Below, one piece after another: positions 20,992 through 64,000 of a DNA stretch of 64,000 nt. Origin of the DNA: Brachyhypopomus gauderio (Eukaryota > Chordata > Actinopteri > Gymnotiformes > Hypopomidae); assembly GCF_052324685.1 (NCBI RefSeq), contig NC_135226.1, positions 16,517,384 to 16,581,383 of the forward strand, given 5' to 3'. The position numbers were made by a program, and so were the translations under genes. The notes beneath the pieces are model-generated. The model was given only the letters and a program-made list of their open reading frames with translations, did no database searches and was not told where the DNA came from. Numbering within the stretch: the first letter of the stretch is position 1; each line of letters begins with the position of its first letter.

Positions 20992-21135
20992 AAGCACACA
21001 TAGAAAGCAGAAGTCGTTAAGGGACAGTGAGGATTTGACTGTCTAATGGGTGAACATCAGCAGGGATGTCATTTTTATTTTCTAGCAAATTATGTTTTTC
21101 TGTCTGAAACTGAAAACTGACATTGAAAATAAGTG

Positions 21136-22074
21136 ATGGGAAATTCATCTGCAGAGTTTACGTTTGTGCTTCATGGACTTACTGACACAAAAACAAACAT
21201 CCACATGTACTTTGGATTTGGTCTTGTTTTCTATATTGTGACAGTGTTGGTCAATTTGTTGCTAATTATGACAGTTATTTTGGATAAGACGCTTCATGAA
21301 CCTATGTATCTTTTTATATGCAGTTTGTTTGTTAATGGAATATGTGGTGCTTCTGCCTTCTATCCAAATATCCTTGCTGATCTTTTATCTGACACTCATG
21401 TTATTTCATATACAGCATGTCTGACACAAATGTGTGTAATTTATTCTTATGTATTGTATGAATTCACATGTCTAACAGTCATGGCATATGACCGATATGT
21501 AGCTATTTGTAAACCTTTGGAATATCTGTGTATTATGACCCACCAGAAGGTTATAAAACTGCTTACTTGTATCTGTCTCTTCTCCATAACAGAGTCATTA
21601 ATTGGTGCTGCACTGACCATCCGGCTTCCCTTATGTGGCAATGACATTGACAAGCTTTACTGCTCAAACTGGGAGGTTGTTAAACTCTCTTGCACAGATG
21701 TAACTGTGAACAATGTGTATGGGTACATTCTAATATTTTCTCATATTTCCCAAGGCATGTTCATCATTCTGTCATATATTCACATCATCAGAGTTTCATT
21801 ACAGTCTAAAGCAGGAAGAGTTAAATTTATGCAAACATGCCTTCCTCATTTAATTACCCTCATGAATTTCAGTGTTTCCATAATCTTTGATGTCATGTAT
21901 TCTCGCTATGGCAAAAGCCAGGGGTTGCAAGCTATGCGCAATATCTTGGGTATAGAGTATCTTGTTGTACCTCCCCTACTAAACCCCATAATATATGGAA
22001 TAAACTTGTCCCACATACGGCAACAGTTTTTAAAAATGTTCAGGCACAAACTTGAAGCTGTGAGACAGAGCTGA
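21136..22074 (+). CDS. Odorant receptor OR3 (312 aa)
   Basis: Intact olfactory GPCR. The start lines up with the paralogues but the second codon is Gly (MGNSSAEF). It has LHEPMYLFIC, MAYDRYVAIC, the loop-2 cysteine set, RVKFMQTC and PPLLNPIIYGIN at the expected spacing. TM3 (QMCVIYSYVLYEF) and TM4 (TCICLFSITESLIGAAL) place it with OR1 and the body of OR6. The tail MFRHKLEAVRQS matches the tail of OR4 and most of that of OR6. Codon use and length are ordinary for the cluster. Its promoter has been split by a hAT element. Confidence 0.95.
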   Translation: MGNSSAEFTFVLHGLTDTKTNIHMYFGFGLVFYIVTVLVNLLLIMTVILDKTLHEPMYLFICSLFVNGICGASAFYPNILADLLSDTHVISYTACLTQMCVIYSYVLYEFTCLTVMAYDRYVAICKPLEYLCIMTHQKVIKLLTCICLFSITESLIGAALTIRLPLCGNDIDKLYCSNWEVVKLSCTDVTVNNVYGYILIFSHISQGMFIILSYIHIIRVSLQSKAGRVKFMQTCLPHLITLMNFSVSIIFDVMYSRYGKSQGLQAMRNILGIEYLVVPPLLNPIIYGINLSHIRQQFLKMFRHKLEAVRQS

Positions 22075-23885
22075 TATTGCTGTTCTGTGTAACAGTAACC
22101 CATCTGTCTCAATTCAGGCAATCAGTCTAGGATTACAGTTGCCTGTGGGCTGTTTCTAAGATAAATGGAAAGGACTCACACAAGGGGATTTCAAATCATA
22201 ATCCATAGTGCTCTACATGTCTAAGCAATTTGTGATTATTATTACTGGGGGAATTTTCTGCTTCATGCATTTGACTCAATCTAAATATAGCTGCCTCAAA
22301 TATTATTTAAAGTAAATAATTTTATAAAGATTTCTGTGTAGTAAAATACATCATGCATATACATTAGAATGAATTATGATTGCCTGTATTACTGAACTCA
22401 TTCTAACAAATACATCACATAAAACAATGAAAATTCTCTAGTTGTGTGAATGATCAAGTTTAGTGGCTGACTTTCTTTCTTATTCCATCTTGTAATGCTT
22501 CAAAGAACTTGTCTTGTTGAACAAAAGAACAGCCATGTTAAATTATAAAATTTTAAACAAAACTTTGGCTGAAAGGCAGAATATTACCATAAAGCCATTC
22601 ACTAAATCTGTTACTTTAACATTCTCTGGCTGTTTCCATTCAAGTTATTTTTTATGAAAATTGCTTTAGTGCTTAACATTTGGAAATAGAAATTGTCTTA
22701 ATTCTAAAACATTGCATTCATAAGTTGTGTCATCAAGCATTTTATATGCTAAAGCAATTGAACATGAAAATGAGAAAAAAAAGTGCTTTTGCACTTAAAA
22801 TGTTTGAACCAAGGTTATAATAGTTTTGGATTTTTCATTATAGTTTAGTTTTTATTTAATTGTGAATTTTTTTTCTAATTCAGTTAGTTTTAATTCGTTT
22901 TAGAACATATTTGCTAGTTCTTATTAGTAAATATTTTTTTAAGCTTAGTTTTAGTTTTGTTTTCATTAGTTCTAGTATTTGGTTCGAGTGAAAAACTAAA
23001 GGCTTTTTGAAGGCAATCGAGTCACACAGTCGTGTTGACATCCCAGTCTCAACACATTAACCAGTGCATCCTCCCGCTTGCAGTTTTCCTGCATATTAAT
23101 TAACCAGCAGCTATTTGATCACTGAAGAAAATTGTCCATTATGGTTGTGTCCATCCCGGTGCTACCTAGCCGGAATGTTGCTTCTCTTTCAGCGGAGCTA
23201 CTCAGAGAGTCTAGCTTGTCAAGGTACTGGCATTTAGCCCTATTATGTGAGCTCAACCCCCACAAAATCCACCAGCCACTTGCACATCTCGCAACCTGTG
23301 AAACAATACTTTATGAAACAGGCATATGGGACCTAGCATATGGGGACAAACATAGTCATAGGAACAGGAACAGACACATATGAGACCTGAAACAAGTACA
23401 TCAAAAGAGGCACAAACTGAAGTAATCATAGGAACCAGAACAGCATGAGGGACAGGAGACAGTAACACCAGGGCACCCACAGGGAACACAGTATGCACTG
23501 GGGAACTACAAGGTGCGGATATGTAGAGGACATGACTATAGAACTCCACTGGAAACAGACCATCCATACATATATATTTTTTAATTATTATCTGTCACTT
23601 TATTGTTTTTTTTTTAAATAATATTTGTGAGAGGGTATCAGCAGTCAGGAGCGACAAGTTGGTATTTTCCTCAGAGCCTGTAGAGGGCGCTCGGTGCTGA
23701 TTGTTAGGAAAACTAATGCCTCTGGCAAAATACAAAAAGGTCAGAAGGTCACAGATTATATATTTTTTAACTATCTGTCAACCTCAGGAAATTATTTATG
23801 CTCAAATGGTACAATAAGCTTTTAAGTTTAAACATTTAAGGCAATTCGTTTCCTCAAATCATGCGAGTTGACTTAGCTCAGGTGG
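22075..23885. other. OR3 downstream flank
   Basis: 22080-22700 resembles the flanks of OR1, OR4 and OR6 (TGTTCTGTGTAACAGTA soon after the stop; CATCATGCATATA further on). 22810-22990 is a T-rich repeat with GGTTATAATAGTTTTGGATT, a word seen in common fish MITEs. 23100-23570 has LTR-retrotransposon-like composition (GGAACAGGAACAG words) without usable boundaries. Confidence 0.4.
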
Positions 23886-25440: not shown

Positions 25441-25444
25441 AGGA

Positions 25445-25510
25445 TCTTCAGGGAATTCTAATAATTTGCATAGCAGTCACACAAAAAAAATCTGTATGTA
25501 TATTTATACA
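25445..25510 (+). promoter_or_regulatory. OR4 proximal promoter
   Basis: TCTTCAGGGA at 25445-25454, ATTTGCATA at 25464-25472, ACAAAAAAAATCTGTATG, then TATTTATAC at 25501-25509. The start codon is 65 bp further on. Spacing between the first two sites (19 bp start to start) is the same as at OR7. Confidence 0.6.
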
Positions 25511-25574
25511 GGCACCATGTATGGAAAGACATTTTTCAAAGTCTAGAGTTTTTGTCCAGATGTACTGAGAAGTG

Positions 25575-26513
25575 ATGGAAAATGCATCAATAGAGTTTGT
25601 ATTTGTACTTCACGGATTGAATGACACAATGACAAACAAACATATTTACTTTGGATTTGGTCTTCTTCTGTATATTGTGACACTGTTTGTAAATTTGGTA
25701 CTTATTATCACTGTTATTCTAGACAAAGCACTTCATGAACCTATGTATCTGTTCATATGCAATTTGTTTGTAAATGGACTATGGGGTACATCTGCTTTCT
25801 ATCCAAAGATTCTTGCTGATCTTTTATCAGACTCCCATATTATCTCATTTTTAGCATGTCTGGTACAAATATATATGATTTTATGTTATACCATGTGTGA
25901 ACAAACATGTCTAACTGTAATGGCATATGATCGATATGTAGCTATTTGTAAGCCTTTGGAATATCTGGACATTATGACACACCAGAAGGTTGCAAAACTG
26001 CTGGCTTTTAGTTGGCTCTTCTCCTTACTAGTGACATCTATCGGGGCAGTGCTGACAGTCAGAACGCCTTTATGTGGCAATGACATTGACAAACTGTACT
26101 GCTCTAACTGGGAGGTTGTTAAACTCTCTTGCACAGATTTGATTATGATTGATGTATATGGAAACTTTCTTTTACTTTGTCTTGTTTTCCAAGTTACATT
26201 CATTACTGTATCGTATATTCACATAATTAGAGCATCTTTACAGTCCAAGGCAGGCAAGATTAAATTCATGCAGACATGTCTTCCACATTTAATCACTCTC
26301 GTAAACTTTGCACTTTCTCTAGTCTTTGATGGCATGTATTCTCGCTATGGCAAAAGCCAAACACAGCAAGCTCTGCGCAATATCTTTGGCATAGAGCTTC
26401 TTGTTGTGCCTCCTCTCCTAAACCCCATAATATATGGAATGAACTTGTCCCAGATACGGAGACAGGTTGTAAAAATGTTCAGGCACAAACTTAAAGCTGT
26501 GAGACAGAGCTAA
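25575..26513 (+). CDS. Odorant receptor OR4 (312 aa)
   Basis: Intact olfactory GPCR, start at MENASIEF. All class signatures are present (LHEPMYLFIC, MAYDRYVAIC, loop-2 cysteines, KIKFMQTC, PPLLNPIIY). TM3 QIYMILCYTMCEQT and TM5 LIMIDVYGNF pair it with OR7. From about residue 288 onward (NLSQIRRQ, then MFRHKLKAVRQS) and through the 3' flank it instead matches OR3, which suggests a recombinant tail. GLWGTSAF in the TM2-TM3 region is distinctive (others GICGASAF or GIWGASAF). Loop 3 starts HIIRASLQSKAG. Confidence 0.95.
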   Translation: MENASIEFVFVLHGLNDTMTNKHIYFGFGLLLYIVTLFVNLVLIITVILDKALHEPMYLFICNLFVNGLWGTSAFYPKILADLLSDSHIISFLACLVQIYMILCYTMCEQTCLTVMAYDRYVAICKPLEYLDIMTHQKVAKLLAFSWLFSLLVTSIGAVLTVRTPLCGNDIDKLYCSNWEVVKLSCTDLIMIDVYGNFLLLCLVFQVTFITVSYIHIIRASLQSKAGKIKFMQTCLPHLITLVNFALSLVFDGMYSRYGKSQTQQALRNIFGIELLVVPPLLNPIIYGMNLSQIRRQVVKMFRHKLKAVRQS

Positions 26514-27796
26514 TATTGATGTTCTGTGTAACATTAGTAACTTTATAAAAGTAAAGCATTTCAAGATTTCTGTGTAGTAGACATCATGCATATAAATTAG
26601 AATAGATTCTGATTGCCTGTGTTATTGAACTCATTTGAACAAAAACAGCACATAAAATACAAATTCCCTTCAATGACGCAGTGCCAGTCTGTAAAAATTT
26701 ACATGAAACTTAAAGCAGCCCAGAGGAAAATTTTATTGCTTAAATGTTGATCTTTGATGTCTCAGGACACTTATTTGAGATTCTCATTTATGTTTCATTA
26801 AGATATCAACTTTGTCACAGATGTTTCTCCTAAAAGTTCTTAGGAGAAATAGAATTAGACAAAATTGAGACTTGAGAAATCTCTGAGGTTAAAGGAGTCA
26901 AAACTGAGAATTCCAAATGATATCTCTTTCTTGTATTGAATTAATCTCCTTCAAGGCTCCATTTTTACTATAGAATGAAAAGGAAATGACTCAGTTACAT
27001 TTTGTTTCCCCAAATAAACAAATTCATTTTAATTAAGACACAACATTTTACATACATACATTTTATTCTTGCATGCGTCTTGCAACTTCTTTTTTCTTGA
27101 ACAGAAATGTTGCATATGTACAAAAAGAAAAAAAAAAAGAAATTGCAGGAGTAATAACTGAGGTGTTGGTGCAATGTCAGAAACTGAAGTACAATTTATG
27201 TACAACTGAATTAGATGCTAAATAGATTCGAACAAAATACAAACAAAAAACAGTAGCATAATATGATACATCATACATGACAAAGGTAAGACAATATTCC
27301 CTGCAAAACACTGTCTTTTGAGCCTTATTAATTTAACTTAAAAATGTAACTTAAAAAATTTAAATAACTTATGTTAACAAACAATGCTAAATATTAACAA
27401 TACCAAAGCGTAAAACAAAAGAACTCACACTACAAATATGAATTGTCAAGTCAAATCTGGCCAATAGACTGTATGTAATGTAATATAATATATTATATAA
27501 TATGTACGTAATAACTTGTATCCTACAATTTTTCCCCTTTTCTTCAACTGAAAGATTGCTATGCTCGTTTCAAGCATTACTTCTAATAAGTAATATAAAC
27601 AATTTTCATTAAAAAGATAACACTTGTGTGTTAGAACTGTGTATTAACTGTGTATCTAAAACTAAAATATTATTTAAAAATATCTTGTTCATGAAGTTGT
27701 ACATCAGTGTTCTGCGCAAAGAACCTTAGTTTCTTTGGTGGACAGCGGGTTCTCTTGAGCATTTCCCGTGCACCTCACCTACAGTCAGTCAGTCAG
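26514..27796. other. OR4 downstream flank, AT-rich, no gene
   Basis: The first 150 bp are homologous to the OR3 flank (GTTCTGTGTAACATTAG, CATCATGCATATAAATTAGA). From 26750 to 27700 the DNA is strongly AT-rich with poly-A and poly-T runs, with no supported feature. Confidence 0.45.
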
Positions 27797-31160: not shown

Positions 31161-31488
31161 GAAATTTTTGAAAAACTTCTCAAATAAATAAGAAGAAGTA
31201 TACAAAGTAATAGGAATGATTATAGATTGTGACGCACGGTGCAGGGCGAAGGACAAGGCACAGACATCCTTGCTTTCTCTCACGGTCACTTAATTTATAC
31301 AAATATAGCACAGTCAGCGCTCGTGTAAACAACATAAACACACTATGTGTAGACTCAGAACAAAGACCAGCACGGGACACTGTGCGAACGCACATTAAAT
31401 AGACGAACCACATAAACCCCAAATGTTGACAAGACGAGCCACAGGTGAGACCAATAAACACTTGGGCTGTGTTCGAAATAGTCTACAA

Positions 31489-32265: not shown

Positions 32266-32855
32266 TAGATTACCTACACAGAAAAGTTAAGGTCAAGTAA
32301 TATTTTTATTGAATTCTGATACTTGATTTTGCTACATATTAAATGGTCGTAAATATTTCCCAAACATCGGCAGTCTTTCAAGTAGTTTAGTACAATGTTT
32401 GTACACATTCAAATGACATTTTTGTATTGTATATGTACATGGTATTTTACTGTTTTATATTTTGTTTGGGTTGGATATTCCTGAGTCATCTAGGTTTAGA
32501 TGCAGTTTAATAATCCTTTAATATATAATCAGGAGCCCATAAACTAGGGATGACCAATCGCTGAAATTCTCTTTCCAACTGTTCCTTAATCTGGGAGGGC
32601 CCATAACAGCAATGGTGTGATATGATGAACAGGCTATTAAGATATTGCATGTTTAAAGATATCCTACATGATTGTTGTTCATAACATATACTTGATCACA
32701 AAACTCTGAACATAAAAGTAAATCTAGAAATGAGCATGGAAAGTAGGAAAAGTCAGCACGACTATGTCTAGTAGTTGAAGTTATGAACATTTTATGAACT
32801 AGTTATGGGCATTTTAAATCAGGTTAAAAAATGTGTAGGCTATACTTCTTTTGAT

Positions 32856-32886
<31 letters not shown>

Positions 32887-32906
32887 GAAAGGGCTGGGAG
32901 TGGAAT
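32266..32906. other. OR5 upstream flank
   Basis: 32526-32820 is shared with the region upstream of OR6 (40980-41360, interrupted there by a hAT) and with 63838-64000. Shared words include ATGATGAACAG, TTGTTGTTCATAACATA and CTTGATCACAAAAC. A 20-base poly-C run lies at 32857-32876. Confidence 0.7.
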
Positions 32907-32957
32907 GGGAGGGGGTGAGAAGATGAGGCTTATAAGACATTTTAAAAGCTTGATGTC
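32907..32957 (+). promoter_or_regulatory. OR5 proximal promoter (type 2)
   Basis: GGGAGGGGGTGAGAAGATGA, then GGCTTATAAGAC (TATA word at 32930-32936) and TTTTAAAAGCTTGATGTC. Practically the same block precedes OR6. It lacks the TCTTCAGGGA and octamer sites of the type 1 promoters. The TATA word lies about 55 bp before the start codon. Confidence 0.55.
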
Positions 32958-32987
32958 TTGTATTGCATACAGCTGTGCAGAGGAGTG

Positions 32988-33923
32988 ATGGAAAATTCCT
33001 CTAGTGAGTTCCAGTTTGTATTACATGGATTGAATGACACAATGACAAACAGAAATATTTACTTTGCATTTGGTTTTCTTGTCTATATTATGACACTTTT
33101 TGTGAATTTGACACTTGTGATAACTGTTATTCTGGACAAGACTCTTCATGAACCAATGTATCTGTTCATATGTAATTTGTTTATAAATGGAATATGTGGT
33201 GCGTCGGCCTTCTATCCAAAGATACTTGCTGATCTTTTATCAGACTCCCATATTGTATCATATATACCATGCCTGATACAAATATATTTGATTTTTTGTT
33301 ATGCTATGAGTGAATTCTCATGTCTAACAGTTATGGCATATGATCGATATGTAGCTATTTGTAAGCCTTTGGAATATTCAGAAATTATGACACACCAGAA
33401 GGTTGCAAAACTGTTGGCTTTTAGTTGGCTCTTCTCTTTACTAGTGACATCTCTGGGGGCAGTGCTGACAGTCAGAATGCCTTTATGTGGCAATGACATT
33501 GACAAACTGTACTGCTCTAACTGGGAGGTTGTTAAACTCACTTGCACAGATTTGATTATAATTGATGTATATGGCTACTTTGTTTTTATTTATCTTGTTT
33601 TCCTAGTTACAATCATTATTGTGTCATATATTTACATAATTAGAGCATCGTTACAGTCCAAGGCAGGGAAGGTTAAATTCATGCAGACATGTCTTCCACA
33701 TTTAATCACCCTCATAAACTTTGCAGTTTCTCTAGTCTTTGATGCCATGTATTCTCGCTATGGCAAAAGCCAAACACAGCAAGCTCTGCGTAATATCTTG
33801 GGTATAGAGTTTCTTGTTGTGCCGCCTCTCCTAAACCCCATCATATACGGAATAAAACAGACTGAGATGCGCCGTCAGTTTGTAAAAATGTACACAAAAC
33901 TTAAATCAGTGAGTCGGAGCTGA
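32988..33923 (+). CDS. Odorant receptor OR5 (311 aa)
   Basis: Intact olfactory GPCR. The frame is open further upstream, but the ATG of GTGATGGAA (MENSSSEFQF) lines up with every paralogue and gives normal length. Signatures: LHEPMYLFIC, MAYDRYVAIC, loop-2 cysteines (TCTD instead of SCTD after the invariant block), KVKFMQTC and PPLLNPIIY. TM3 QIYLIFCYAMSEF is identical to OR8. The C-terminus (KQTEMRRQFVKMYTKL) is shared in kind with OR7. SYIPCLIQ at the start of TM3 is unique (others have TACL or similar). Its first 60 codons are the closest match to those of OR6. Confidence 0.95.
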   Translation: MENSSSEFQFVLHGLNDTMTNRNIYFAFGFLVYIMTLFVNLTLVITVILDKTLHEPMYLFICNLFINGICGASAFYPKILADLLSDSHIVSYIPCLIQIYLIFCYAMSEFSCLTVMAYDRYVAICKPLEYSEIMTHQKVAKLLAFSWLFSLLVTSLGAVLTVRMPLCGNDIDKLYCSNWEVVKLTCTDLIIIDVYGYFVFIYLVFLVTIIIVSYIYIIRASLQSKAGKVKFMQTCLPHLITLINFAVSLVFDAMYSRYGKSQTQQALRNILGIEFLVVPPLLNPIIYGIKQTEMRRQFVKMYTKLKSVSRS

Positions 33924-34492: not shown

Positions 34493-35697
34493 TGTTATCC
34501 TGGGAGGGCCCGTGAAATGCCATCAGCGTCAGGGGGCGATAAGGCAGATGCAAGCGCTGAGAAGAGCATGATTTAATAAAAGGCATATATTCAGGGTCAT
34601 ATTCAGGGTCGCATGAACAGGCAGTGGTCAAATCCAAATGTGAGTCTGACAGGTGGGGGCAGGACTACAGTAGGCTACATGTGACAGCAACTTCCTCCCC
34701 CCAAAAGCGCACCACACTGAGGTGCGCAAACCAAAAAAACAAAACCAGAAACCTAGAATATAACCACCAAACAAAACACAACTAGAACATCAACCAAGCA
34801 CACCCGAAGGAGAACCAAAAACAGACAACACAGACAAACCAGGCAGAGACACAGATAACACCAGAAGAGCAAAAAGTAACAGAAGAAGCAGAAGAAACTG
34901 AAGGAAACGCAGACACAGGAAACACAGAAGCTGAACGAGAAACAGAAAAACCAGAGACAGACACAGGAACGGGAGTGAACTCAGGATAACACAACCAAGA
35001 ACACACGGACGACGAACAGGCCGACAAGAGGACGGAGGAGCATCGACACAAACAGAACGATGACATCCCGGAGGAGACACCACAGGAGAACAAAAAACAA
35101 CGCAACAAAGATCAGGCAAAAGACAATGGAATGGGCACAAAAACCGGCACAGACACTGAAACAGAAACCACAACACAAGCAAAAATAAAACCAGACACGA
35201 AAGACGGCAAAAACAACAAAACAGGAAACACAGAAATAGAAAAAACAGAAGAGGGTGGGACAGGTGGGAACCAAGGAGCTACAGGAGGCAATGAACAGGG
35301 CGGGATGGGCTGGAACCAATGAGCAACAGGATGCGTAGGCTGGCCCGGGTCCTCTGGCGCAGTGAGGACATCCAGTGGACATTCACCGGAGGCATGGCGT
35401 CAACGTCACGTGGAGGCAGGTCTAGAGGTACCGAAGGGTCACAAGACCTGAGGTTGACCCACTCAAGGATCACTGGAGCCAGGGTTGATCTACTCAGTGT
35501 CACTAGAGCTGGGGGAAATGACCTTTTCTGGGTCACAGGAATGGGAGCAGCTGCCGTGACGGCCTCCAGGGTTGCTGCCACTGTGGAAACGGTCTCCAGA
35601 GACACTATCGTTGTGGAAAAGTGTCCATATGTGCAGCTGCTGTGGAAATGGCGTCCAGGGATGCTGCCACTGTGGGGAAGGTGTCCAGGTCCAGGAC

Positions 35698-36698
35698 CAG
35701 TGATGGCTAAGTTACCTTGAGAAAGTAATCCGATTACTGATTACTGATTACTCCTTTTAAAAGTAACTTAGTTACGTTACATATTACTTGATTTTAAAAG
35801 TAACTACGTTAGATTACAAGTTACTTTAGTAGTTACATTCAGCAGCAAAATAAATTTTTCCAATACTCACTTTATTGGAAGTGCATTTTTAACAGTAACA
35901 ATGTATTGAAGCAGGTTCGGTAACCGAGGCAGAAACTGCTTAATCCAAAAATCCCGAGGAGGGAAACTTTATTGATAACGCAACCCTGGCTCGCGCAGGC
36001 TCCGCCCCCCACAGTGTCACTTAAAGGGCGAGACTCGCCGTGAGGAGTAGTAGTCGCTACAGTATCTCCTGACATTACGTTTGTGTAGCTGCGTGGTATT
36101 ATTTGTAAATTTATTTGTAAACGTAATACAAGCGAACTGGGGTGGGTTTCCCGAAACGTTCGTAGCGCCAAGTACTTCGTAACCTCGTATGAAACGTACG
36201 TTTCGGGAAACCCACCCCTGTTCAGTCAGACAGCTTGTGAAACGAAATACCATTACAATTTCAAGCATTTTAAAGTAGGCGACGTTAGTCAAAATTCCAG
36301 CACTTTTCAAACGTGGAACACAGTGCAACATTAAAATTCTTCAGGTAAATGTTCCTTCCCCTGTTTTTGAGGGGTGTTTCTTTATACTACCACACATCGT
36401 TATGGGAGGACACTGCAAAAAATGACTTGTAAAACGCGCTCGCGCTCTCACAGGGTCGCGCGCAGCGTGCGGAGTCGAGCGCTACGGTCAGAAGCAAAAG
36501 TAGAACTGAGCCAAGAAGAAAGCAAAAATATATATATTTTACTAGGGAAAATAAAAATAGTAACGCACAGTTATTTGGATAAGTAACTTTAATCTGATTA
36601 CTGGACTGGAAATAGTAGCGCGTTATATTACTCGTTACCGAAAAAAGTGGTAAGATTAGAGTAACGCATTACTAAGTAACGCGTTACTGACATCACTG
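35698..36698. mobile_element. Non-autonomous hAT element (copy 2)
   Basis: 8-bp duplication TCCAGGAC (35690-35697 and 36699-36706). Same family as 17276-18286 (CAGTGATGG start, GTAACGCGTTACTGACATCACTG end) with the same MITE-derived middle. It lacks the solo LTR of copy 1 but carries a 78-bp palindromic MITE (36140-36217) and an extra block of about 155 bp at 35908-36062 of unknown type. Confidence 0.88.
36140..36217. mobile_element. 78-bp palindromic MITE
   Basis: GGGTGGGTTTCCCGAAACG at the left is the reverse complement of the right end. The 3-bp flank CTG is duplicated (36137-36139 and 36218-36220), and the empty site is present in hAT copy 1 at about 17832. Almost the whole element can fold on itself. 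Confidence 0.8.
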
Positions 36699-37003
36699 TC
36701 CAGGACCTAATGAAGACACCCAGTATCCCACCTTCAAAACATCCAGGCATTTCACAAGCCTCTGGGGAATCCAGAGGAACAGCTGGGTGAACTGGAATAG
36801 AGTGCATGGTCCTCTCCACACCTGCAACCGTGGTATGCCGGGGGCATGAGCTTCCATCTCCCTCACAGGAGCCTGGAAGACCCTGGAAGAACATACAGAC
36901 ACAATCCCCTCTCGGCCACTCTCACTATGCCAGCTCCCTCCACACGAGGTATGGGGAGCTCATATTGGTGCTTGAGAGTGCACAGAGAGTACTGCCTTGG
37001 GTT

Positions 37004-38453: not shown

Positions 38454-40979
38454 TGTAACGGAGGGGTGGTAATGTAACCAGGGGGCGGACACACTGGCGC
38501 TGGAGAGCGGGACTCTAAGCTATTTGAACTAGCCATCTTGGCTAACCGTATCGTGCCTGCACATAGAACTCTACTTTTACGTGGCATGTGAACAAAGGAA
38601 CAGACACAGACTACTGACTACTTAAATAAGAGGACGCGACACAAACCAGGTAAATTCGAACAAATTATAAATACTGAAAGCAACAACGATCATGAACATA
38701 CCAAAACACAAGACTAGATGAAATACAAATGACACCAGGAGTAAACGCAAAACAGAACCAGATCAAACAGAAACATAGACCGTAGAATACATACAATATA
38801 AGCCGACACAGGGAACAGTGAATGTGTAGGCTACTTTAGACCAAACGTAAACTAGCAGCAGGACAATACACCATTGGATTACAAAGACATATAACGAAAC
38901 TGACAATGAACCGTAGACAACACCAGACTATATACAAAGTAACCACAACAAAGAGAAACGTGACACAACAGAAACAAACCTTACACACTGACTCTCGAAC
39001 TAAGAGACACACAGAAGACCAACATCTAGAACGACCATATTCCTGAAACATAAGCAAGACTATCCACATAAACAATAAGCCGAAGCACTCGCAACATTCA
39101 GACCGAAACATAAACCACTGCAGTACGAGACACTGACTTCACCATAAACATTGACCCACAACAAATACCCGAAACACAAGGATTAAATACAAACCTTAAC
39201 GAACACTCAAACAAGCAACAGCTGAAACCAATGAAACAAACAGGCAGAACTAAACAGAAGACCAGAGGAGGAGGAGCCAGGTGTGACAGAACCCCCCCTG
39301 TAAAGCGCCACTCCGGGGCACTTAAAACCACACCAGAAAACAAAACAAGTCACGTACAAAAAGGAGCAAAACCAGGACGAACAACACGGAAACCAGGAAA
39401 CAAGACAGGAGACACGGAGGCAGGACCAGACGCAGAAGTTGGCGAATACCCAAAACCAGAACCAAACATAGAAGACACAGAAGAGGCCGGGGACACAGGG
39501 GCAGTGAAAGGAAGCGAAACACTGGACGCAGTCGGCACAGTACCGGACGGCCCAAGCGACCCAGAGGCAGAGAATGGACTGGATCCCATCGGGGGCACTC
39601 CAGAAAGTGAGGCTGTAGAAAAAGAGACATTATCGGGTGTACGAATGGGAGTGGATGAGGAACCAGCCGAACCCTCAGAGGGAGAAGAGGTAAGTACAGC
39701 AGCAGACCTGGGGGGAAACACCGGATCGGAGGAACAGGAGAACACCGAGGTGAGTATACGAAAAACAACAGATACATGAATAGGAACGAGTTGAACACAC
39801 AGACAAGGAACCGGAATCGTACAGGGCACAAAAACACACAAACCTGAAACATATATGGGTACAGAGACTACAGAAAAACGATAGGAGGTCACAGGCACTG
39901 GCACAAACACGTATTCAGGGACAGGAGTCCAGAACAAAAGTTTCATGTGGGACATGTGTTCCAGGAGTTCCCATATCATGGGGGTTACGCTGACCCCTAT
40001 ATCACTGTCATAGTTCTCTTGGGTGGCTGTTCCCGGTAGTCCCTGTGGCAGGATAGTGGGAACAGGCGGCACAGGTCCTGGCCCAAGCTCAGTAGTCTGA
40101 GGGTCAGGCAAAGACCCCTTGCAGGGCGCCGAGACGGGCGGCGACGACCACCTCCCAGCAGCTGGAACAGGTAGCGGCGACGGCTCTGACCCCCTCCGGA
40201 CAGCAGGAACAGGTAGCGGCGACGGCTCTGACCCCCTCCGGACAGCAGGAACAGGTAGCGGCGACGGCTCTGACCCCCTCCGGACAGCAGGAACAGGTAG
40301 CGGCGACGGCTCTGACCCCCTCCGGATAGCAGGAACAGGCGGCGGCAACGGCGGCGGAAACTGACAACGAACCGTAGACAACACCAGACTATATACAAAG
40401 TAACCACAACGAAGAGAAACGTGACACAACAGAAACAAACCTTACACACTGATTCTCGAACTAAGAGACACACAGAAGACCAACATCTAGAACGACCATA
40501 TTCCTGAAACATAAACAAGACTATCCACATAAACAATAAACCGAAGCACTCGCAACATTCAGACTGAAACATAAACCACTGCAGTACGAGACACTGACTT
40601 CACCATAAACATTGACCCACAACGAATACCCGAAACACAAGGATTAAAGGGCATTGCATATTCAGGGTCATATAAACAGGCAGTGGTCAAATCTGAAAGT
40701 GAGTCTGACATATAAACAGAACCAACAAGCAAAGACATACTTGAACACAAAGAACAAACAGTAGCACTTCAAAAATACATTAACACACAAAGCTGTACAT
40801 AAAACAAAGATCAGTACAGACTAGACACAACAAGGGGTTTAAATATAACAGAAAAAACAAGAAACATCTGAAACCAATGATGTGCCGGGTTACAAAAAAA
40901 ACACAAGGAGGGGAATACATGACAGCACGCACATGGCTAAATAAACAAGTACTCGTGAGGGGCGGGGTTAACCATGACA
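38454..40979 (-). mobile_element. LTR retrotransposon fossil with Pro-rich repeats
   Basis: An LTR-like segment 38454-39288 (TGTAACGG...GTGTGACA), then a C-rich tract (polypurine tract in reverse) and the shared word GCCACTCCGGGGCAC, as in the 6250 element. The interior runs to about 40358 and includes 45-48-bp tandem repeats at 40150-40340 (reverse frame units of type VPAVRRGSEPSPL). Then part of the LTR recurs from 40359. The distal LTR part resembles 34583-34660. Mosaic and broken. Confidence 0.65.
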
Positions 40980-41049
40980 GCCCTTATCAGCGACGGTGTG
41001 GTATGATGAACAGACTATTAAGATATTGCCTGTTTACAGACATCCTACA

Positions 41050-41205
41050 CATAGGCGTGGTAGTGGGGGGAAAAGTGGACCTGACTATACAGGGCCTGAG
41101 TAGGGAAAGGGGCCCATTTTTCTCATGTACCTCATTTACTGGCAATTATAAGGGCCCACTGTCATTGAGAGTGTACAGGGCCCAGAATTTGCTGCTACAC
41201 CCCTG
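41050..41205. mobile_element. hAT-type MITE upstream of OR6
   Basis: Flanked by ATCCTACA (41042-41049) and ATCTTACA (41206-41213), an 8-bp duplication with one change. Ends are CATAGGCGTGGTAGT and the complement of CAGGGGTGTAGCAGC. The uninterrupted sequence is present upstream of OR5 (near 32665), so this is an insertion into the duplicated flank. Confidence 0.8.
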
Positions 41206-41436
41206 ATCTTACATAATTGTTGTTCATAACATACTTGATCACAAAACACTGAACATAAAAGTAAATCTAAAAATAAGCATGGAAAATAACCAATAATAAG
41301 ACATCAGTACAACTATAGTTATATCCAGTAAATGAACATCTTTAAATTTAGTTCATAATAATGTTTTAAAACATTTAAAAACAGGTAGAGAAAAAAAGTA
41401 TACTTCTTTTGATCCCCCACCCCCCCTCCCCCCTGG

Positions 41437-41500
41437 ACTGGGAGTGGGATGGGAGGGGGTGGGAAGATGAGGCTTATAAGACATTTTAAAAGCTTGATGT
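41437..41500 (+). promoter_or_regulatory. OR6 proximal promoter (type 2)
   Basis: GGGAGTGGGATGGGAGGGGG, GAAGATGAGGCTTATAAGAC (TATA word at 41475-41481) and TTTTAAAAGCTTGATGTC, almost base for base the OR5 promoter. Confidence 0.55.
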
Positions 41501-41534
41501 CTGGTATTGCATACAATTGTGCAGGAAACGAGCG

Positions 41535-42473
41535 ATGGAAAATTCTTCTAGAGAGTTCCAGTTTGTACTGCATGGATTGAATGACACAATGACAAACAAA
41601 AATATTTACTTTGCATTTGGTCTTCTTGCCTATATTATGACTCTGCTTGTGAATTTGACACTAGTGATAACTGTTATTCTGGAAAAGACACTTCATGAAC
41701 CTATGTATCTGTTCATATGCAGTTTGTTTGTAAATGGAATATGTGGTGCTTCTGCTTTCTATCCAAAGATCCTTGCTGATCTTTTATCAGATTCCCATGT
41801 AATTTCATATACAGCATGTCTGACACAAATTTGTGTAATTTATACTTATGCCTTGTATGAATTCACATGTCTAACAGTCATGGCATATGACAGATATGTA
41901 GCTATTTGTAAACCTTTAGAATATCTGTGTATTATGACCCACCAGAAGGTTATAAAACTGTTAACTTGTATCTGCCTCTTCTGTTTAACAGAGTCATTCA
42001 TTGGTGCTGTACTGACAATCCGGCTACCCTTATGTGGTAATGATATTGACAAGCTGTACTGCTCTAACTGGGAGGTTGTTAAACTCTCTTGCACAGATGT
42101 AACTGTGAACAATGTGTTTGGGTACATTCTAATATTTTCTCATATTTCCCAAGGCATGTTCATCATTATGTCATATATTCACATCATCAGAGCTTGTTTA
42201 CAGTCTAAAGCAGGAAGAGTTAAATTTATGCAAACATGCCTTCCTCATTTAATCACCCTCATGAATTTCAGTGTTTCCTTAATCTTTGATGTCATGTTTT
42301 CTCGCTATGGAAAAAACCAGGGGCTGCAAGCTATGCGCAATATCTTGGGTATAGAGTATCTTGTTGTACCTCCTCTCCTAAACCCCATAGTATATGGAAT
42401 TAACTTGTCCCACATACGGCAACAGTTTTTAAAAATGTTCAGGCATAAACTTGAAGCTATGAATTTGAGGTGA
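41535..42473 (+). CDS. Odorant receptor OR6, mosaic of OR5 and OR3 types (312 aa)
   Basis: Intact olfactory GPCR; start at MENSSREFQF by alignment with its paralogues. Residues 1 to about 60 (including KNIYFAFGLLAYIMTLLVN) follow OR5. From ICSLFVNG onward the protein follows OR1/OR3 (QICVIYTYALYEF in TM3, TVNNVFGYILIFSHISQGMF in TM5). The promoter is of OR5 type and the 3' flank of OR3 type, so this gene looks like an unequal crossover or conversion product. MAYDRYVAIC, the loop-2 block, RVKFMQTC and PPLLNPIVY are intact. MFSRYGKN replaces MYSRYGKS. The tail ends EAMNLR, unlike the EAVRQS of OR3. Confidence 0.95.
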   Translation: MENSSREFQFVLHGLNDTMTNKNIYFAFGLLAYIMTLLVNLTLVITVILEKTLHEPMYLFICSLFVNGICGASAFYPKILADLLSDSHVISYTACLTQICVIYTYALYEFTCLTVMAYDRYVAICKPLEYLCIMTHQKVIKLLTCICLFCLTESFIGAVLTIRLPLCGNDIDKLYCSNWEVVKLSCTDVTVNNVFGYILIFSHISQGMFIIMSYIHIIRACLQSKAGRVKFMQTCLPHLITLMNFSVSLIFDVMFSRYGKNQGLQAMRNILGIEYLVVPPLLNPIVYGINLSHIRQQFLKMFRHKLEAMNLR

Positions 42474-43009
42474 TATTGGTGTTCTGTGTAACAGTACTAA
42501 ACTAATTTGAAAAAAAAAAACATCACATAAAACCATGCAAAGTCCTTAGTTGTATCAATGATTAGGTATATTGGGTGACTTTCTTTATTGATATGTTTAT
42601 GCTTCAAACAACGTGTCCTGCAGACTACTGCTAAACAAAAGAACAGCTTATGTTAAATTAAGCAATTTTTAAGAAAACTTTGACCGAAAGGTTGAAAATC
42701 ACCTCAAAGGCATTCACTAAAGCAATTACTTAAATGTTCTCTGCCTGTTGCCATTCAAGTACAAATTGCTTTGTTTTTTATCATTAATTAATTAATCATT
42801 AATTATTTGATCATTAACTAATTTTTTAAGTGCAGGTGCAACATGCTAAGGATTATGGCCAATTGAGGTATGATAAATATTAATGTTATATTAATGTTAT
42901 AATGTTTGTTATAAAATGCTAAATAAAGGTAAGGATCAGGAGCCCATAAACTTCCCTTTCCAACTGTTCATTAAGCTGGGGGACCTTTTAAAAATGTGCA
43001 AATGTGCCT
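42474..43009. other. OR6 downstream flank
   Basis: Starts like the OR3 flank (GATATTGGTGTTCTGTGTAA). Around 42844 (ATGCTAAGGATTATGG) it matches 53030-53090, and at 42935-42985 (AGGAGCCCATAAACT) it matches the OR5 upstream flank. Confidence 0.5.
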
Positions 43010-44150
43010 CTGTTTATGCTCCTGTGTGTCATAATCATGCATTTCCACCTTCACTGTCTGATGCAACTTTTCACACTTGGAAATTAACAGGCATAGTTGC
43101 TTTGAAGGATTTGTACATCAATAAGCATTGTTGCTTCATTTACTCAACTGCAACATAAGTTCTCCCCCCCAGCGTCACATTTCTTCAGGTACCTGCAAGT
43201 TAGGAACTATGTACGCCAAAACATAGATAATTTCAAAATTCATGCTGAGGAAAGTAAGATTTATAATCTTTAGTTTGGCCCACCAGATTCAAGGCACCTG
43301 ATTTCAAATGTTGTTAAAATATTCTCTGAACAATTGGATTGTGCCACCCAGTCCTTGAAAAATGCTTGGGAAGAAGAGTTGAGTATACAGATTGATGATA
43401 TTGTTTGGGGGGAAGGTCTCAGTAGGATACAACATTGTTCCATCGATGCTAGACATCACCTTATTCAGTTCAAGGTCATGCATAGGCTCCACTACTCTAA
43501 AACCAAATTGCCTAAAATATATCCAACTGTCTCCCCTTTGTATCAGAGAGGCAAATCTGCAGAGGGTAGCCCACCTTTTCTGGTCAAGTCCAAAACTGTA
43601 TGACTTTTGGTGTAGTGTATTTCAATGGTTTTCTGAGCTGTACAATTGTGTTTTCAAGCCTGACCCACAGGTGGCACTTTTTGGGTTCTCAATGTCTCTG
43701 TTGCCGCAAAGTATGCGTGTACAACATACCATAATGTACGGAATGGTTATTGCAAAAAAACTAGACATGGTTGTCTGAGCTTTTCAAGACATGGTTGTCT
43801 GAGCTCACATCTTTATTGTCTAACAATCTCAGAGAAATTTACAAGATATGGCGGCCATTCTTGGACCATCTCGAAGAGTTTGATGGAGACCTTGAAATGT
43901 GACAGGCTACCCACCTCTTACTCTTTTCTTTTTTTTTTTTTATAAATGCTGGCTTTGCACTAGTGAAGATATGTCATTGCCTTAGTTTGTACGCCCCGTC
44001 TGTTTTGTTTTTGTGTGTGTTTTTCTTTCCTTTTTTTTCTTTCTTTTCTTTCTTTTTCTTAAGCATATTGTATTATTTTTTCAGCTGTTTACTTGTCAAT
44101 TTGTACATAACATTTCTGAAAAACTGTAATAAACATATTGATAAAAAAAA
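43010..44150 (+). mobile_element. 5'-truncated L1-type LINE
   Basis: C-terminal ORF2 remnants of fish L1: SLSDATFHTWK, LKDLYINK, then RIQHCSIDARHHLIQFKVMH, HRLHYSKTKLPKIYP and AHLFWSSPKLYDFWC, DPQVALFG. The pieces are in different frames with frameshifts and stops (LINE, not an active copy). Reverse transcriptase and endonuclease are missing. It ends with AATAAACATATTGATAAAAA, a poly-A-like tail. Confidence 0.85.
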
Positions 44151-44427
44151 TAAAAATGTGCAAAGTGGTACCTTTGCACTGTACTGTAGAAATGGTATTT
44201 GGGTCAAATCTATAATCAGGGTATACATTTCACATTTTTCAATTTAAAAAAGATGATTTCCATAAATTTTTTTGGAAAGCATTACGTATGCACAAATTTT
44301 TTGATGTCACAAATAAACTGTCTAGTGACAGGTTTAGTGGTGCCCCGTGACGCTAGTTGTTATTTTGGCTTTTAGAACTAGGCCTTATGAGTTCCATATT
44401 TGTGGTTCGTTTAAAGGGCCTTATGAG

Positions 44428-44459
<32 letters not shown>

Positions 44460-44802
44460 CCTCACTTATATAGAGTGTTATGAGAAGTAATGCTTTGTAA
44501 GTAAGGCTTTGACTAAATCAGGTTATTTGTGTAACTGTGTAAATTATATATAATTGTATATAACTAATACGGTTTGTTTTTTGTATTTCCTCTTTTTTTG
44601 GACTTGTACAGGTGGGTTGCCATTTTGGTTTGCATTTTCTCCTGTTTATGTTTGTAGTGAGATGGGAGGATAATTAGTATTTTGTTTGTTTTATGTTGCA
44701 AGGAGACTTAGTTTATAAGTTGCTAGTGATTTTTTGTTTGTTGTGTTGGCATAAGCCCACCCTGAAGCCCCAAATGTAAAAACATTTATTAATTATTATA
44801 GA
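44151..44802. other. OR7 distal upstream flank
   Basis: 44157-44330 is homologous to 53690-53793 plus 55708-55740 (TTTTTTGATGTCACA after an ACGTATGC word). It thereby gives the empty site for the LTR element at 53794. A short (TA)n tract lies at 44438-44458. No gene. Confidence 0.5.
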
Positions 44803-45605
44803 TGCATCATTTTGCCAAAAGTATTCGCTCAGCCATCCAAATGATTGGAATGAGTTGTTCCAATCAGTTTCCTGGTCACAGGTGTATAAAATTAAGCACC
44901 TAGTTGTGCAGGCATGTTTGTTTTTACAAACATTTGTAAAAGAATGAGCTTTCAGGACCTCAGTGAATTTCAGCGTGGAACTGTGATAGGATGCCACCTG
45001 TGCAACAAATCCAGTCATGAAATTTCTTTGCTTCTAAATATTACACAGTCATCTGTCAGCTGTATTATAAGAAAATGAAATTGTTTGAGAACGACAACAA
45101 CTCAGCCATGAAGCGGTAGGCCACGTAAACTGATGGAGTGGGGTCAGCAGATGCTGAAGCGCATAGTACGAAGAAGTTGCCAATTTTCTTCGAAGTCAAT
45201 TACTACAGACATCCAAACCTCATGTGGCCTTCAGATTAGCTCAAGAACAGTGCGTAGAGAGCTTCATGGAATGGGTTTCCATGGTCGAGCAGCTGTATCC
45301 AAGCAATACATCGTCAAGTGCAATGCAAAGCGTCGGATGCAGCGGTGTAAGGCACACCGCCACTGTACTCTAGAGCCATGGAGATGCATTCTCTGGAGTG
45401 ATGAATCGACCTTGTCCATCTGGCAATCTGATGGACGAGTATGAATTTGGCGGTTGCCAGGAGAATGCCCATAAACACACTCCTAAACCTTGTGGACAGC
45501 CTTTGCAGAAAAATTTAAGCTGTTCTATCTGCAAAGGTTGGATGGATCAACGTCATATTGAACCCTATGGATTAGGAATAGGATGTCACTTATGGCAATA
45601 GTATA
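44803..45605 (+). mobile_element. Internally deleted Tc1-type element
   Basis: The left end TTTTGCCAAAAGTATTCGCT and right end TTATGGCAATAGTAT are those of a widespread fish Tc1 family. Between them the DNA-binding part is readable (FQDLSEFQRGTVIGCHL and SSRTVRRELHGMGFHGRAAV, the latter in the frame 45133-45444), then ILWSDESTLSIWQSDGR with the first catalytic Asp. The region with the second Asp and Glu has been lost between about 45470 and 45500. Stops and frameshifts are present; non-functional. Confidence 0.85.
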
Positions 45606-45772
45606 TATTGTATTTTGTATTTTGACACATAGGTTTAAAAATACACATTAATGAGGGAAAACAAGAGACAGGTGAACACACAAGGCAAGCTAACAAGGGG
45701 AATGGCACAATAACCACATCAACACTACAAAAAACATGCACATAGTGGACCATACCAGGGGCGCCAGGCCAG

Positions 45773-45774
<2 letters not shown>

Positions 45775-45807
<33 letters not shown>
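45775..45807. repeat. (GT)n microsatellite
   Basis: About 15 GT dinucleotides, 200 bp before OR7. Confidence 0.9.
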
Positions 45808-45859
45808 GTACCGTTACACTTGTTTATCTACTTATCTGACTGAAGAATATGCAATTGCA

Positions 45860-45925
45860 TCTTCAGGGAATTGTAATAATTTGCATATAGAAACACAAAA
45901 AAAATCTGTACAAATATTTATAGGA
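45860..45925 (+). promoter_or_regulatory. OR7 proximal promoter
   Basis: TCTTCAGGGA at 45860-45869, ATTTGCATA at 45879-45887, ACAAAAAAAATCTGTA and AATATTTATAGG near 45913-45924. Almost identical in order and spacing to OR4. Confidence 0.6.
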
Positions 45926-46007
45926 TCACTAAGTACTGTAAGTGATGTTTATCAGACTTTTTTGAAAGCCTGCAATCTGTGTTTTTGTTGAGATATGCTG
46001 AGAAGTG

Positions 46008-46943
46008 ATGGAGAATTCATCTACAGCGATAATATTTGTACTTCATGGACTGAATGACACAACGACAAACAAACATGTTTACTTTGCATTTGGTCTTCTT
46101 GTCTATATTGTGACACTGTTTATAAACTTGGTACTAATTATCACAGTTATTGTGGATAAGGCACTTCATGAACCTATGTATCTGTTCATATGCAATTTGT
46201 TTGTAAATGGAATTTGGGGTGCATCTGCATTTTATCCAAAGATCCTTGCTGATCTTTTATCAGACTCCCATGTTATCTCATTTGTAGCATGCATGATACA
46301 AATATATATGATGTTATGTTATACTTTGTGTGAACAAACATGTCTAACTGTAATGGCATATGATCGATATGTAGCTATTTGTAAGCCTTTGGAATATCTG
46401 GACATTATGACATATCAGAAGGTTGCAAAACTGCTGGCTTTTAGTTGGCTCTTCTCCTTACTTTTGACATCTATCGGGGCAGTGTTGACAGTCAGACTGC
46501 CTTTATGTGGCAATGACATTGACAAGCTGTACTGCTCTAACTGGGAGGTTGTTAAACTCTCTTGCACAGATTTGATTATGATTGATGTATATGGATACTT
46601 TCTTTTACTTTATCTTGTTTTCCAAGTGACATTTATTATTGTATCTTATATTTACATAATTAGAGCATCTTTACAGTCCAAGGCAGGCAAGATTAAATTC
46701 ATGCAGACATGTCTTCCACATTTAATCACCCTCATAAACTTCGCAGTTTCTCTAGTCATTGATGCCATGTATTCTCGCTATGGCATAAGCCAAACACAGC
46801 AAGCTCTGCACAATATCTTGGGTATTGAGTTTCTTGTTGTGCCTCCTCTCCTAAACCCCATCATATATGGAATGAAACAGACTGAGATGCGCCGCCAGTT
46901 CGTAAAAATTTACACAAACCTTAAAGCAGTGAGTCGGAGCTGA
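46008..46943 (+). CDS. Odorant receptor OR7 (311 aa)
   Basis: Intact olfactory GPCR, start MENSSTAI. LHEPMYLFIC, MAYDRYVAIC, loop-2 cysteines, KIKFMQTC and PPLLNPIIY are all present. The first three quarters match OR4 (QIYMMLCYTLCEQT in TM3, LIMIDVYGYF in TM5). From about residue 240 it matches OR5 (INFAVSLV, ALHNILGIEF, KQTEMRRQFVK) and so does the 3' flank. DAMYSRYGISQ has Ile where the others have Lys. Both the promoter and the first coding part are OR4-like. Confidence 0.95.
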   Translation: MENSSTAIIFVLHGLNDTTTNKHVYFAFGLLVYIVTLFINLVLIITVIVDKALHEPMYLFICNLFVNGIWGASAFYPKILADLLSDSHVISFVACMIQIYMMLCYTLCEQTCLTVMAYDRYVAICKPLEYLDIMTYQKVAKLLAFSWLFSLLLTSIGAVLTVRLPLCGNDIDKLYCSNWEVVKLSCTDLIMIDVYGYFLLLYLVFQVTFIIVSYIYIIRASLQSKAGKIKFMQTCLPHLITLINFAVSLVIDAMYSRYGISQTQQALHNILGIEFLVVPPLLNPIIYGMKQTEMRRQFVKIYTNLKAVSRS

Positions 46944-48125
46944 TAATGGTTCTAAGAGGTGTTAATGTTTGTGTGCATTCATCCAGGCACACTGTTCTGT
47001 ATTTTAGATGAGCAAATACCACCAGGACTTTCTTAGGATGAAAACATTGCCAAGTGTGTAAGAACACATGTATCTCAAATTTTGATTTTGGAATCAAATG
47101 TCTTTAGTGGTAATCAGCTGTTTTGCTATGAGAGCTTAGAATTGAATAGTTATATCTGAAAAAATAAGACACAAAATAGATGCCATAATAAACTCTGTTT
47201 TAACAGGCTTTTTTCCCCATTTGTTTTGGGGAAGCACATTTTCAGCATTTCCGCATTCAGTGTTCAATACCACACATAAAAATCTGTGCTTTTTTTCTTG
47301 TACTTGGTGGTAATTATCATGAAAGTCACGAATGTTAAATCAGTTGTAAAAGTGTGCAAATTTTCCCTTTCATTTGGTCACCTAGTATAAAGCATTACAT
47401 CATTTAAAGATGGAACACGTAGAGTACAAATGTGCATTGTGCATCAAATTCTGGTTTGTGATCTTTAGTCTTCCATGCTCTCATACATTTATTAGTACAA
47501 AATTCTGTGTCTCACTAAGCATTCAAAGAGCATGACACTTTCCCCTCTTTGTTCTAGTTTAGTTCACTACTGTCTGTCTCCTTCTTGCTTTAGTTTGTTG
47601 TGATTTTGCTCATTTATTTATTTTTTATTATTTGCAATTTTGAGACATTCCATAATTGAGTGGATAGGTTGCCCTACAAAAAATGTAAAATGTTTTCCTA
47701 AAAAAAAAAACAATTAGAAATATAGAAATCAATAGAAATTATTGCAGATTTACCTAATCAACTAATATTTTTTACTGTGAAACTTGATACTGCCATCTTC
47801 TGGTGAAATATAATAGCTTTTATTTTATGATTTTATGACAGAGGATGTGGGCCAGTGCAAATATGAACACAGGCCACATTTGAAACATAACTGCTAGAGA
47901 TAGTTGTGCATGAAATTCACAGTAGATCAGCAGTTTCTGAAAAACCTAGAGAAGCCCTCATTAGCACCAACAACCATGCCACATTCAAAGTAATTCATCT
48001 TTCTTTCTCATTCTGATGTTTAATTTAAACTTCACTCATCTTGACCATGTCTAAATGGCATATGATTGCTTCTGCTATAATTGGCTGTTTAAGTTAATGA
48101 TGAACAGTTTATGTGTGAGTCTGAA
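46944..48125. other. OR7 downstream flank
   Basis: 46944-47670 is homologous to the OR5 flank and the ghost at 30370-31160. From 47670 to 48120 nothing is recognised. Confidence 0.55.
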
Positions 48126-48423: not shown

Positions 48424-50041
<1,618 letters not shown>

Positions 50042-59090: not shown

Positions 59091-59095
59091 AATAA

Positions 59096-63837: not shown

Positions 63838-64000
63838 AGCTAATGAGATATTGCATGTTTACAGATATCCCACATCATTGTTGCTCATAACATATTTGAT
63901 CACAGAAATCAATGGGAAAAGTCAGTACAACAATGACCAGTAAATTAACATGAAGTTATGAACATTGCATGAACTAGTTATGAACATTTTAAATGTAGAG
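63838..64000 (+). promoter_or_regulatory. OR5/OR6-type upstream block at the window edge
   Basis: GAGATATTGCATGTTTACAG, then TGTTGCTCATAACATA, TTGATCACAGAA and GAACTAGTTATGAACATTTT match the block upstream of OR5 (32636-32820) and part of that upstream of OR6. In OR5 the start codon follows about 170 bp after the last shared word. Confidence 0.7.

Follow-up and report, generated by a model that had tools for sequence, protein, structure and literature searches.

The olfactory-receptor gene OR6 is a mosaic, in which the upstream DNA and the first 66 or so codons come from one paralogue group, and the remainder of the gene and the 3' flank from OR3, with OR1. The same upstream element and N-terminus are carried by OR5 and by OR9, the latter outside the window, so that one 5' module is found on three receptor bodies.

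The window, i.e. the whole stretch of 64,000 nucleotides analyzed (C16:16517384-16581383, in a genome of 796.5 Mb and 840 contigs), lies within a bigger olfactory-receptor cluster. It contains eight uninterrupted olfactory-receptor genes on the same strand, OR1 to OR8, beyond which tblastn at E 1e-3 detected nothing within the window; the three genes scanned (OR3, OR5 and OR6) match Pfam 7tm_4. For OR6, this match (E 1.7e-48, 166 bits, with a gathering score of 27) identifies a vertebrate olfactory receptor, whose relatives with solved structures include OR52c, consOR4 and OR51E2. OR9 is the next gene to the right of the window end (64122-65057, in window coordinates, as all positions given here). 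Farther right, the array includes OR17, at 131303, which has a gap of 16 codons, in frame, close to TM1, the truncated OR26, at 207532, and partial matches at 100822, 113493 and 243257. The cluster comparison set comprises 27 full-length genes; OR26 was excluded from the alignment and every tree, and OR17 from the simulations and from the AU tests, which include 26 genes. The parts of OR6 and their source types are listed below.

40980..41049, + strand: further OR5-like upstream block of OR6 (OR5 32599-32668, 87% over 70 bp, E 6e-19).
41206..41534, + strand: proximal upstream DNA of OR6, OR5/OR9 type (BLAST to OR5 upstream DNA: 338 bp, 75%, E 4e-59; also to OR9).
41535..42473, + strand: OR6 coding sequence, an uninterrupted ORF of 312 aa with a MENSS start (ATG at 41535, stop at 42473).
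41535..41732, + strand: coding part of the 5' module, codons 1-66, OR5/OR9 type (diagnostic sites; support 99 for codons 1-59).
41733..41791, + strand: interval with the recombination break, codons 67-86, no diagnostic site inside.
41792..42473, + strand: OR3-type body of OR6 (AU tests; support 100 for OR3 with OR6, codons 63-280).
42474..42760, + strand: OR3-type 3' flank of OR6 (matches to 42496 and over 42513-42760; 75.4% over 252 bp, E 2e-43).
21132..22645, + strand: OR3 and its 3' flank, source type of the OR6 body, by sequence matches.
32599..33923, + strand: OR5 and its upstream block, sharing the 5' module, with an OR4/OR7-type body from about nt 341-356.
63839..63994, + strand: OR9 upstream DNA in the last bases of the window (63839-64000), third copy of the 5' module (gene at 64122-65057).

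Identity in sliding windows switches along the gene: the first 60 nt of OR6 are 93% identical to OR5 and 77% to OR3, the 60 nt from about nt 270 are 75% identical to OR5 and 93% to OR3. A promoter-swapped mosaic had been proposed in an earlier, sequence-only reading of this DNA, and recombination tests agree with it. OR6 is the strongest recombinant of the eight window genes in a 3SEQ-type exact test (corrected P 4.9e-14 over 336 triples), and a two-tree model beats one tree (best delta AICc -132, delta BIC -24), with the break near nt 252 and a second peak near nt 852. Separate trees for the two halves are discordant, and no single paralogue groups with both: among the eight window genes, OR6 with OR3 is rejected for codons 1-60 (delta lnL 40.0, AU p 1.4e-6) and OR6 with OR5 for codons 70-312 (delta lnL 203.7, AU p 1.8e-5). 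An AU table for codons 70-280 was set aside, as it gave AU = 0 for two trees of equal likelihood. A painting of the eight window genes by a copying model, in which OR5 likeness ends near nt 150 and is followed by a mixture of OR1, OR2 and OR3, was also discarded, since it lacked OR9.

With the 27 cluster genes, the tree of codons 1-59 puts OR5, OR6 and OR9 together (support 99), and that of codons 63-280 places OR6 with OR3 (support 100), the closest body found in the set, and OR9 elsewhere (support 49). In the 26-gene AU tests, OR6 with OR3 is rejected in the 5' part (delta 42.1, AU 8.5e-7), where OR6 with OR1 and OR3 scores a delta of 29.8 (AU 3.1e-4); in the 3' part, both OR6 with OR9 (4e-33) and OR6 with OR5 (4e-68) are rejected. 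The top single-break triple of OR6 (5' OR9, 3' OR3) reaches an LLR of 51.6, the highest among the 26 of 27 genes with a qualifying triple, and over the 189 informative sites of the whole gene 93% of those left of the break agree with OR9 and 89% of those to its right with OR3. Simulations without recombination (GTR+G, without codon structure; 40 evaluated of 60 simulated alignments) gave a maximum LLR of 13.5 over all triples. Conservation of the break region, which makes the signals local, could suggest convergence or rate variation without any recombination; given that the non-coding flanks switch as well, and that none of the 40 simulations, run without codon structure, comes near the OR6 value, such an origin is extremely improbable. 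OR6 has the following features of a hybrid gene of the OR8U1 kind: a single break within the coding sequence, sides from different paralogues, the reading frame kept, and each non-coding flank in agreement with the adjoining coding part (upstream with OR5/OR9, downstream with OR3).

Within aligned nt 101-331, the 12 one-sided sites up to 41732 are all of OR5/OR9 type and the 12 from 41792 on are all of OR3/OR1 type; as all 24 lie on the expected side, the break is placed in 41733-41791, slightly to the right of the 41660-41720 originally suggested. The ICSLFVNG motif, taken in that suggestion as the start of the OR3-like part, is not diagnostic because OR9 encodes it too. Similarly, an interim break at 41690-41722, based on the N/S codon at position 63, was dropped, as OR9 also has Ser there. 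The break region roughly coincides with a conserved stretch that we take to be TM2, from its position after the LHEPMY motif. The coding part of the 5' module presumably spans the N-terminus, TM1, the first intracellular loop and the start of TM2, and TM3-TM7 are of OR3 type.

The flanks follow the same division. When the 700 bp upstream of OR6 were compared with the 27 other genes, OR5 (307 bits), OR9 (208) and OR11 (40) were matched and OR3 was absent; for the 1500 bp downstream, OR3 alone matched, and 249 of 323 sites aligned in the 3' flank go with OR3, as originally suggested. OR5-like DNA extends to -329 and appears again from -555 to -486, the farther block being separated from the proximal match by DNA of OR6 that is unmatched. 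Identity between OR5 and OR6, in 50-column bins counted from the ATG, is 48/50 in the second, 25/41 in the fourth, 29/48 in the fifth and 45/48 in the seventh. The upstream side of OR6 does follow OR5, as proposed: TATAAGAC, at 41475-41482, lies at -60 in OR6 and -57 in OR5, and is found in the 600 bp upstream of none of the six remaining window genes. Over the 271 kb examined, the + strand has three copies of the longer CTTATAAGAC (32929, 41473 and 64067), whose TATAA is 57, 60 and 53 bases upstream of the start codons of OR5, OR6 and OR9, respectively. In a three-way alignment of these genes, 25 consecutive bases round TATAAGAC are identical, and much of the DNA farther up is poorly conserved. 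Genome-wide, 41410-41730 yields 32 scored matches, which include, besides itself, OR9 (90%, query 18-321) and OR5 (91%, query 26-320); the others are either 72-87% identical or at most 49 bases long.

Of 28 genes, 16 have the motif TTTTAAA between -85 and -20, as against 2.1% of 20,000 random 65-mers. Because it recurs upstream across the cluster, what had been termed a type 2 promoter has probably arisen by modification of a proximal element common to many of these genes. The EBF core CCCNNGGG was not found in the 600 bp upstream of OR6, and EBF and homeodomain consensus motifs proved uninformative. From its position and conservation, the OR5/OR9-type upstream block of OR6 is quite likely the promoter.

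Three LTR-like elements lie in the window (6250-9992, 38896-40648 and 59093-61525). Their terminal direct repeats measure 688, 292 and 459 bp and are 96-98% identical, and their interiors have a GC content of 65%, 55% and 66%, against 41% for the window. They contain long ORFs, on both strands in two elements, and the two ORFs tested have no match in Pfam. The second element ends 0.89 kb upstream of OR6, which it could itself affect.

As to the identity of the 5' partner, the proposal that the first 60 or so codons follow OR5 holds insofar as grouping with OR3 is rejected, yet the nearest relative of OR6 in this part may be OR9 rather than OR5. In codons 1-59, dS from OR6 is 0.108 for OR9 and 0.245 for OR5; the tree of the same codons pairs OR6 with OR5 (support 87), and the 26-gene AU test of the 5' part does not separate the two as partners. 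OR5 as sole 5' donor is thus weakened by OR9, nearer by dS. OR5, too, is probably a hybrid, in which this 5' module is joined to an OR4/OR7-type body. Its single-break LLR, 30.1 (5' OR9, 3' OR7), is second after OR6; in the 27-gene tree of codons 63-280 it falls with OR4 and OR7 (support 100); and, in the 26-gene AU tests, its union with OR9 is rejected in the 3' part (AU 7e-5) and that with OR4 and OR7 has a delta of 22.9 in the 5' part (AU 0.0011). A derivation of OR5 codons 31-115 from OR8, indicated by the 3SEQ-type test (corrected 2.2e-7), was not retained, as joining OR5 to OR4 and OR7 is only 2.0 lnL worse and is not rejected by the KH and SH tests.

Since OR5 likewise pairs the 5' module with another body, the direction of the exchange is not readable from OR6 and OR5 alone, and OR6 might be ancestral, OR3 or OR5 being the recombinant that lost the other half. 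The single-break score of OR3 (15.2; 5' OR2, 3' OR6) does exceed the simulated maximum, as is expected too if it is the shadow of a recombinant OR6. However, OR3 stays with OR1 in both halves (5' support 98 for OR1 with OR3; 3' support 99 for OR1 with OR3 and OR6), dS between them is even (0.486 in codons 1-59, 0.447 in codons 63-312), and the best single-break score of OR9, 8.7, is inside the simulated range, all of which makes an ancestral OR6 very unlikely. Tandem arrays are prone to misassembly, and a chimera of OR5/OR9 and OR3 reads or haplotypes was likewise considered; it is even less probable, because both halves of OR6 have diverged from their sources (in codons 1-59 by the dS values given above, in the body by 0.18 from OR3), with private changes in both parts.

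Overall, the best explanation, and a probable one, is that unequal crossover (non-allelic homologous recombination) between genes arranged head to tail produced OR6 at the junction. A downstream gene of OR9 type, or its relative OR5, would have paired with the upstream OR3, and the exchange would have fallen in the conserved sequence coding for TM2; the resulting duplication would carry the upstream DNA and about 66 codons of the downstream gene, followed by the OR3 body and OR3 3' flank. The copied block would begin inside OR6, and the next gene after OR3 would be copied too, OR4 giving rise to OR7. The features relevant to this second gene are the following.

25444..26525, + strand: OR4, preceded by its upstream DNA, the gene type from which OR7 would derive; it ends in about 30 codons of OR3 type.
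45859..46953, + strand: OR7, preceded by DNA of OR4 type, and presumably the second of the copied genes (87.9% identity to OR4 over 1101 bp).
47066..47750, + strand: OR7 3' flank, matching 30458-31228, taken as the displaced 3' flank of OR4, and also the 3' flank of OR5 (81.0% and 77.3%).

The sequence-only reading had left a choice between crossover and conversion: the recombinant structure itself is strongly supported, and crossover, a fairly likely mechanism in our view, is favoured because OR6-OR7 are collinear with OR3-OR4 and similarly diverged; the decay of the flanks leaves some weight on conversion. Four collinear pairs of segments (21132-22097/41531-42496, 22405-22645/42513-42760, 25444-26525/45859-46953 and 30458-31228/47066-47750) link OR3-OR4 to OR6-OR7, two of them being mostly coding, so that their match is expected anyway; the 3' flank of OR5 also matches that of OR7, i.e. 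the last match is not exclusive to 30458-31228. dS is 0.184 [0.11-0.26] between OR6 and OR3 (codons 63-312) and 0.182 [0.11-0.27] between OR7 and OR4 (codons 1-225), the latter being uneven, with 0.346 in codons 1-60 and 0.128 in codons 61-225. The middles of the spacers, 22645-25444 and 42760-45859, share no sequence at E 1e-4, and the spacing differs, OR4-OR5 being 7.4 kb apart and OR7-OR8 10.1 kb. Tc1-type transposase fragments, one above the Pfam cut-off and one below, lie in the OR6-OR7 spacer (44896-45441), and are probably part of the reason why it no longer matches the OR3-OR4 spacer. A Tc1/Sleeping-Beauty-type transposase ORF of 344 aa is found between OR7 and OR8 (48788-49822).

OR5 fits the same crossover scheme, with OR4/OR7 as partner and the break at about nt 341-356, and so does OR4. 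In 26417-26760, the last 30 or so codons of OR4 and its flank are OR3-type, after which comes what is left of an OR7-type tail (86% over 36 bp, a score reached by none of 200 shuffles), and an OR7-type 3' flank, at 30458-31228, is displaced about 3.8 kb downstream of the gene. The polarity of a duplication product was seen in 10 of 14 genes above the simulated maximum and not in the other four; as these genes are non-independent, polarity is suggestive, and was not taken as proof of crossover.

According to the alternative, OR3-OR4 were duplicated whole, after which gene conversion, with OR9 or OR5 as donor, replaced the start of the copied OR3, namely its upstream DNA and some 66 codons. Conversion-like patches are present in the array (OR1 codons 63-160 close to OR6, the OR4 tail from OR3), 14 of 27 genes have a break that scores higher than any in the simulations, and likeness to OR5/OR9 upstream can be followed no farther than about 0.58 kb. 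On the other hand, the tract would need at least 0.75 kb (40980-41732), and the return to the original paralogue that a conversion tract should show on both sides was not found: at E 1e-3, and as far as flank decay allows, the OR5-OR6 spacer gave no unique DNA resembling OR3. The only segments there that are shared with the OR2-OR3 spacer, near 35.7-36.7 kb (17.3-18.3 kb being their counterpart), had seemed to be OR3-like DNA upstream of OR6, and were rejected as such, since they belong to a dispersed element of about 1 kb (35692-36700, 17276-18288), with a third copy at 180.8 kb (180828-181755) and further pieces elsewhere in the array. Beyond about -0.58 kb, the unique DNA of OR6 matches neither OR5/OR9 nor OR3, and the upstream side is therefore silent on the choice. 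Taken together, conversion is rather unlikely as the origin of OR6.

As 14 of 27 genes exceed the simulated maximum of 13.5, mosaicism is general in the array, OR6 standing out. dS between OR1 and OR6 is 0.156 in codons 63-160 and 0.561 in codons 161-312; the former segment of OR1 is likely a conversion patch. Breaks recur near nt 840 in two separate gene groups, at about nt 842 in OR4 and about nt 831-845 in OR13, OR14, OR16 and OR18, where the conserved TM7 region presumably lies.

OR6 is intact, and its dN/dS (0.22 against OR3 in codons 63-312, 0.18 against OR5 in codons 1-59) is consistent with constraint. The view that an existing ligand-binding body was joined to a new promoter is roughly right, in that the body is OR3-type, but 21 residues differ from OR3 from codon 62 on, including 99, 104 and 106, which by alignment would lie in TM3. 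Faster protein change on the OR6 branch (8 synonymous and 13 nonsynonymous changes, against 16 and 7 on the OR3 branch) is not significant (Fisher p 0.068). Most likely, OR6 would be transcribed from the OR5/OR9-type element and display an OR3-like binding body, and it is conceivable, although somewhat doubtful, that its choice follows OR5/OR9 in neuron or stage and its odour binding follows OR3. For a mouse class I gene, the 0.9-kb Olfr544 promoter region alone is reported to have driven no reporter, the distant J element being needed (PMC5638857), and array position could hence matter as much as the swapped block.

Globin fusions of the anti-Lepore type are duplication products of intragenic unequal crossover that begin as the downstream gene and end as the upstream one; OR6, by its presumed origin, resembles them in polarity, whereas they involve globin genes and are recent alleles. 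Among olfactory receptors, gene conversion and recombination are reviewed as sources of mosaic genes, tandem duplication being presumed to derive from unequal crossover (PMC1995454), and a teleost survey inferred tandem duplication and raised conversion between two families (PMC1325023). Human OR8U1, in which OR8U8 and OR8U9 are described as fused through NAHR where the genes themselves share an identical stretch (PMC2570968), is, like OR6, a chimera of tandem genes joined inside the coding region; it is presented as a recent deletion allele segregating in people, whereas OR6 is old, with dS of 0.1-0.25, and has next to it a block that looks duplicated. The same article mentions a human OR51A2/OR51A4 recombinant with the upstream DNA of one gene and the protein of the other, a swap of upstream regions as in OR6; there, however, the protein equals OR51A4, while the exchange in OR6 also took in the first 66 or so codons. 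HBD of galago, cat and microbat is reported to have acquired a beta-like promoter (PMC4390247), again an exchange between tandem paralogues, by conversion rather than crossover and in globins. In the chicken BG family, also tandem and rich in hybrid genes, two promoter classes are described, the 5' end goes with tissue expression, and unequal crossing-over is a possible cause (PMC4046983); this is a different family, in which expression was measured. Among the titles and abstract openings listed by searches of open-licence papers (at most 20 per search), none described a fish olfactory-receptor cluster in which a single 5' module recurs on three receptor bodies. Hybrids of this kind being already known, it is the recurrence of the 5' module that is of interest.

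Misaligned crossover is a known way for smell-receptor genes to gain new combinations. Tentatively, a promoter-plus-N-terminus module native to the OR9 lineage may have been joined at least twice to other bodies by intragenic unequal crossovers, to an OR3-type body in OR6 and to an OR4/OR7-type body in OR5, growth of the array re-pairing promoters and bodies. If true, this re-pairing of promoters with ligand-binding bodies would be systematic and of fixed polarity, since a product of duplication necessarily starts as the downstream gene and continues with the upstream gene's body, and expression class and odour tuning would evolve semi-independently. Should the upstream block be the promoter, then OR5, OR6 and OR9 constitute a natural experiment, with nearly the same 5' module on three bodies, and OR3 is the counterpart, with an OR6-type body and a different upstream region. 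Comparison of these four genes would address whether neuron choice, zone and developmental onset follow proximal upstream DNA, coding sequence or position in the array, a long-running question in olfactory receptor choice.
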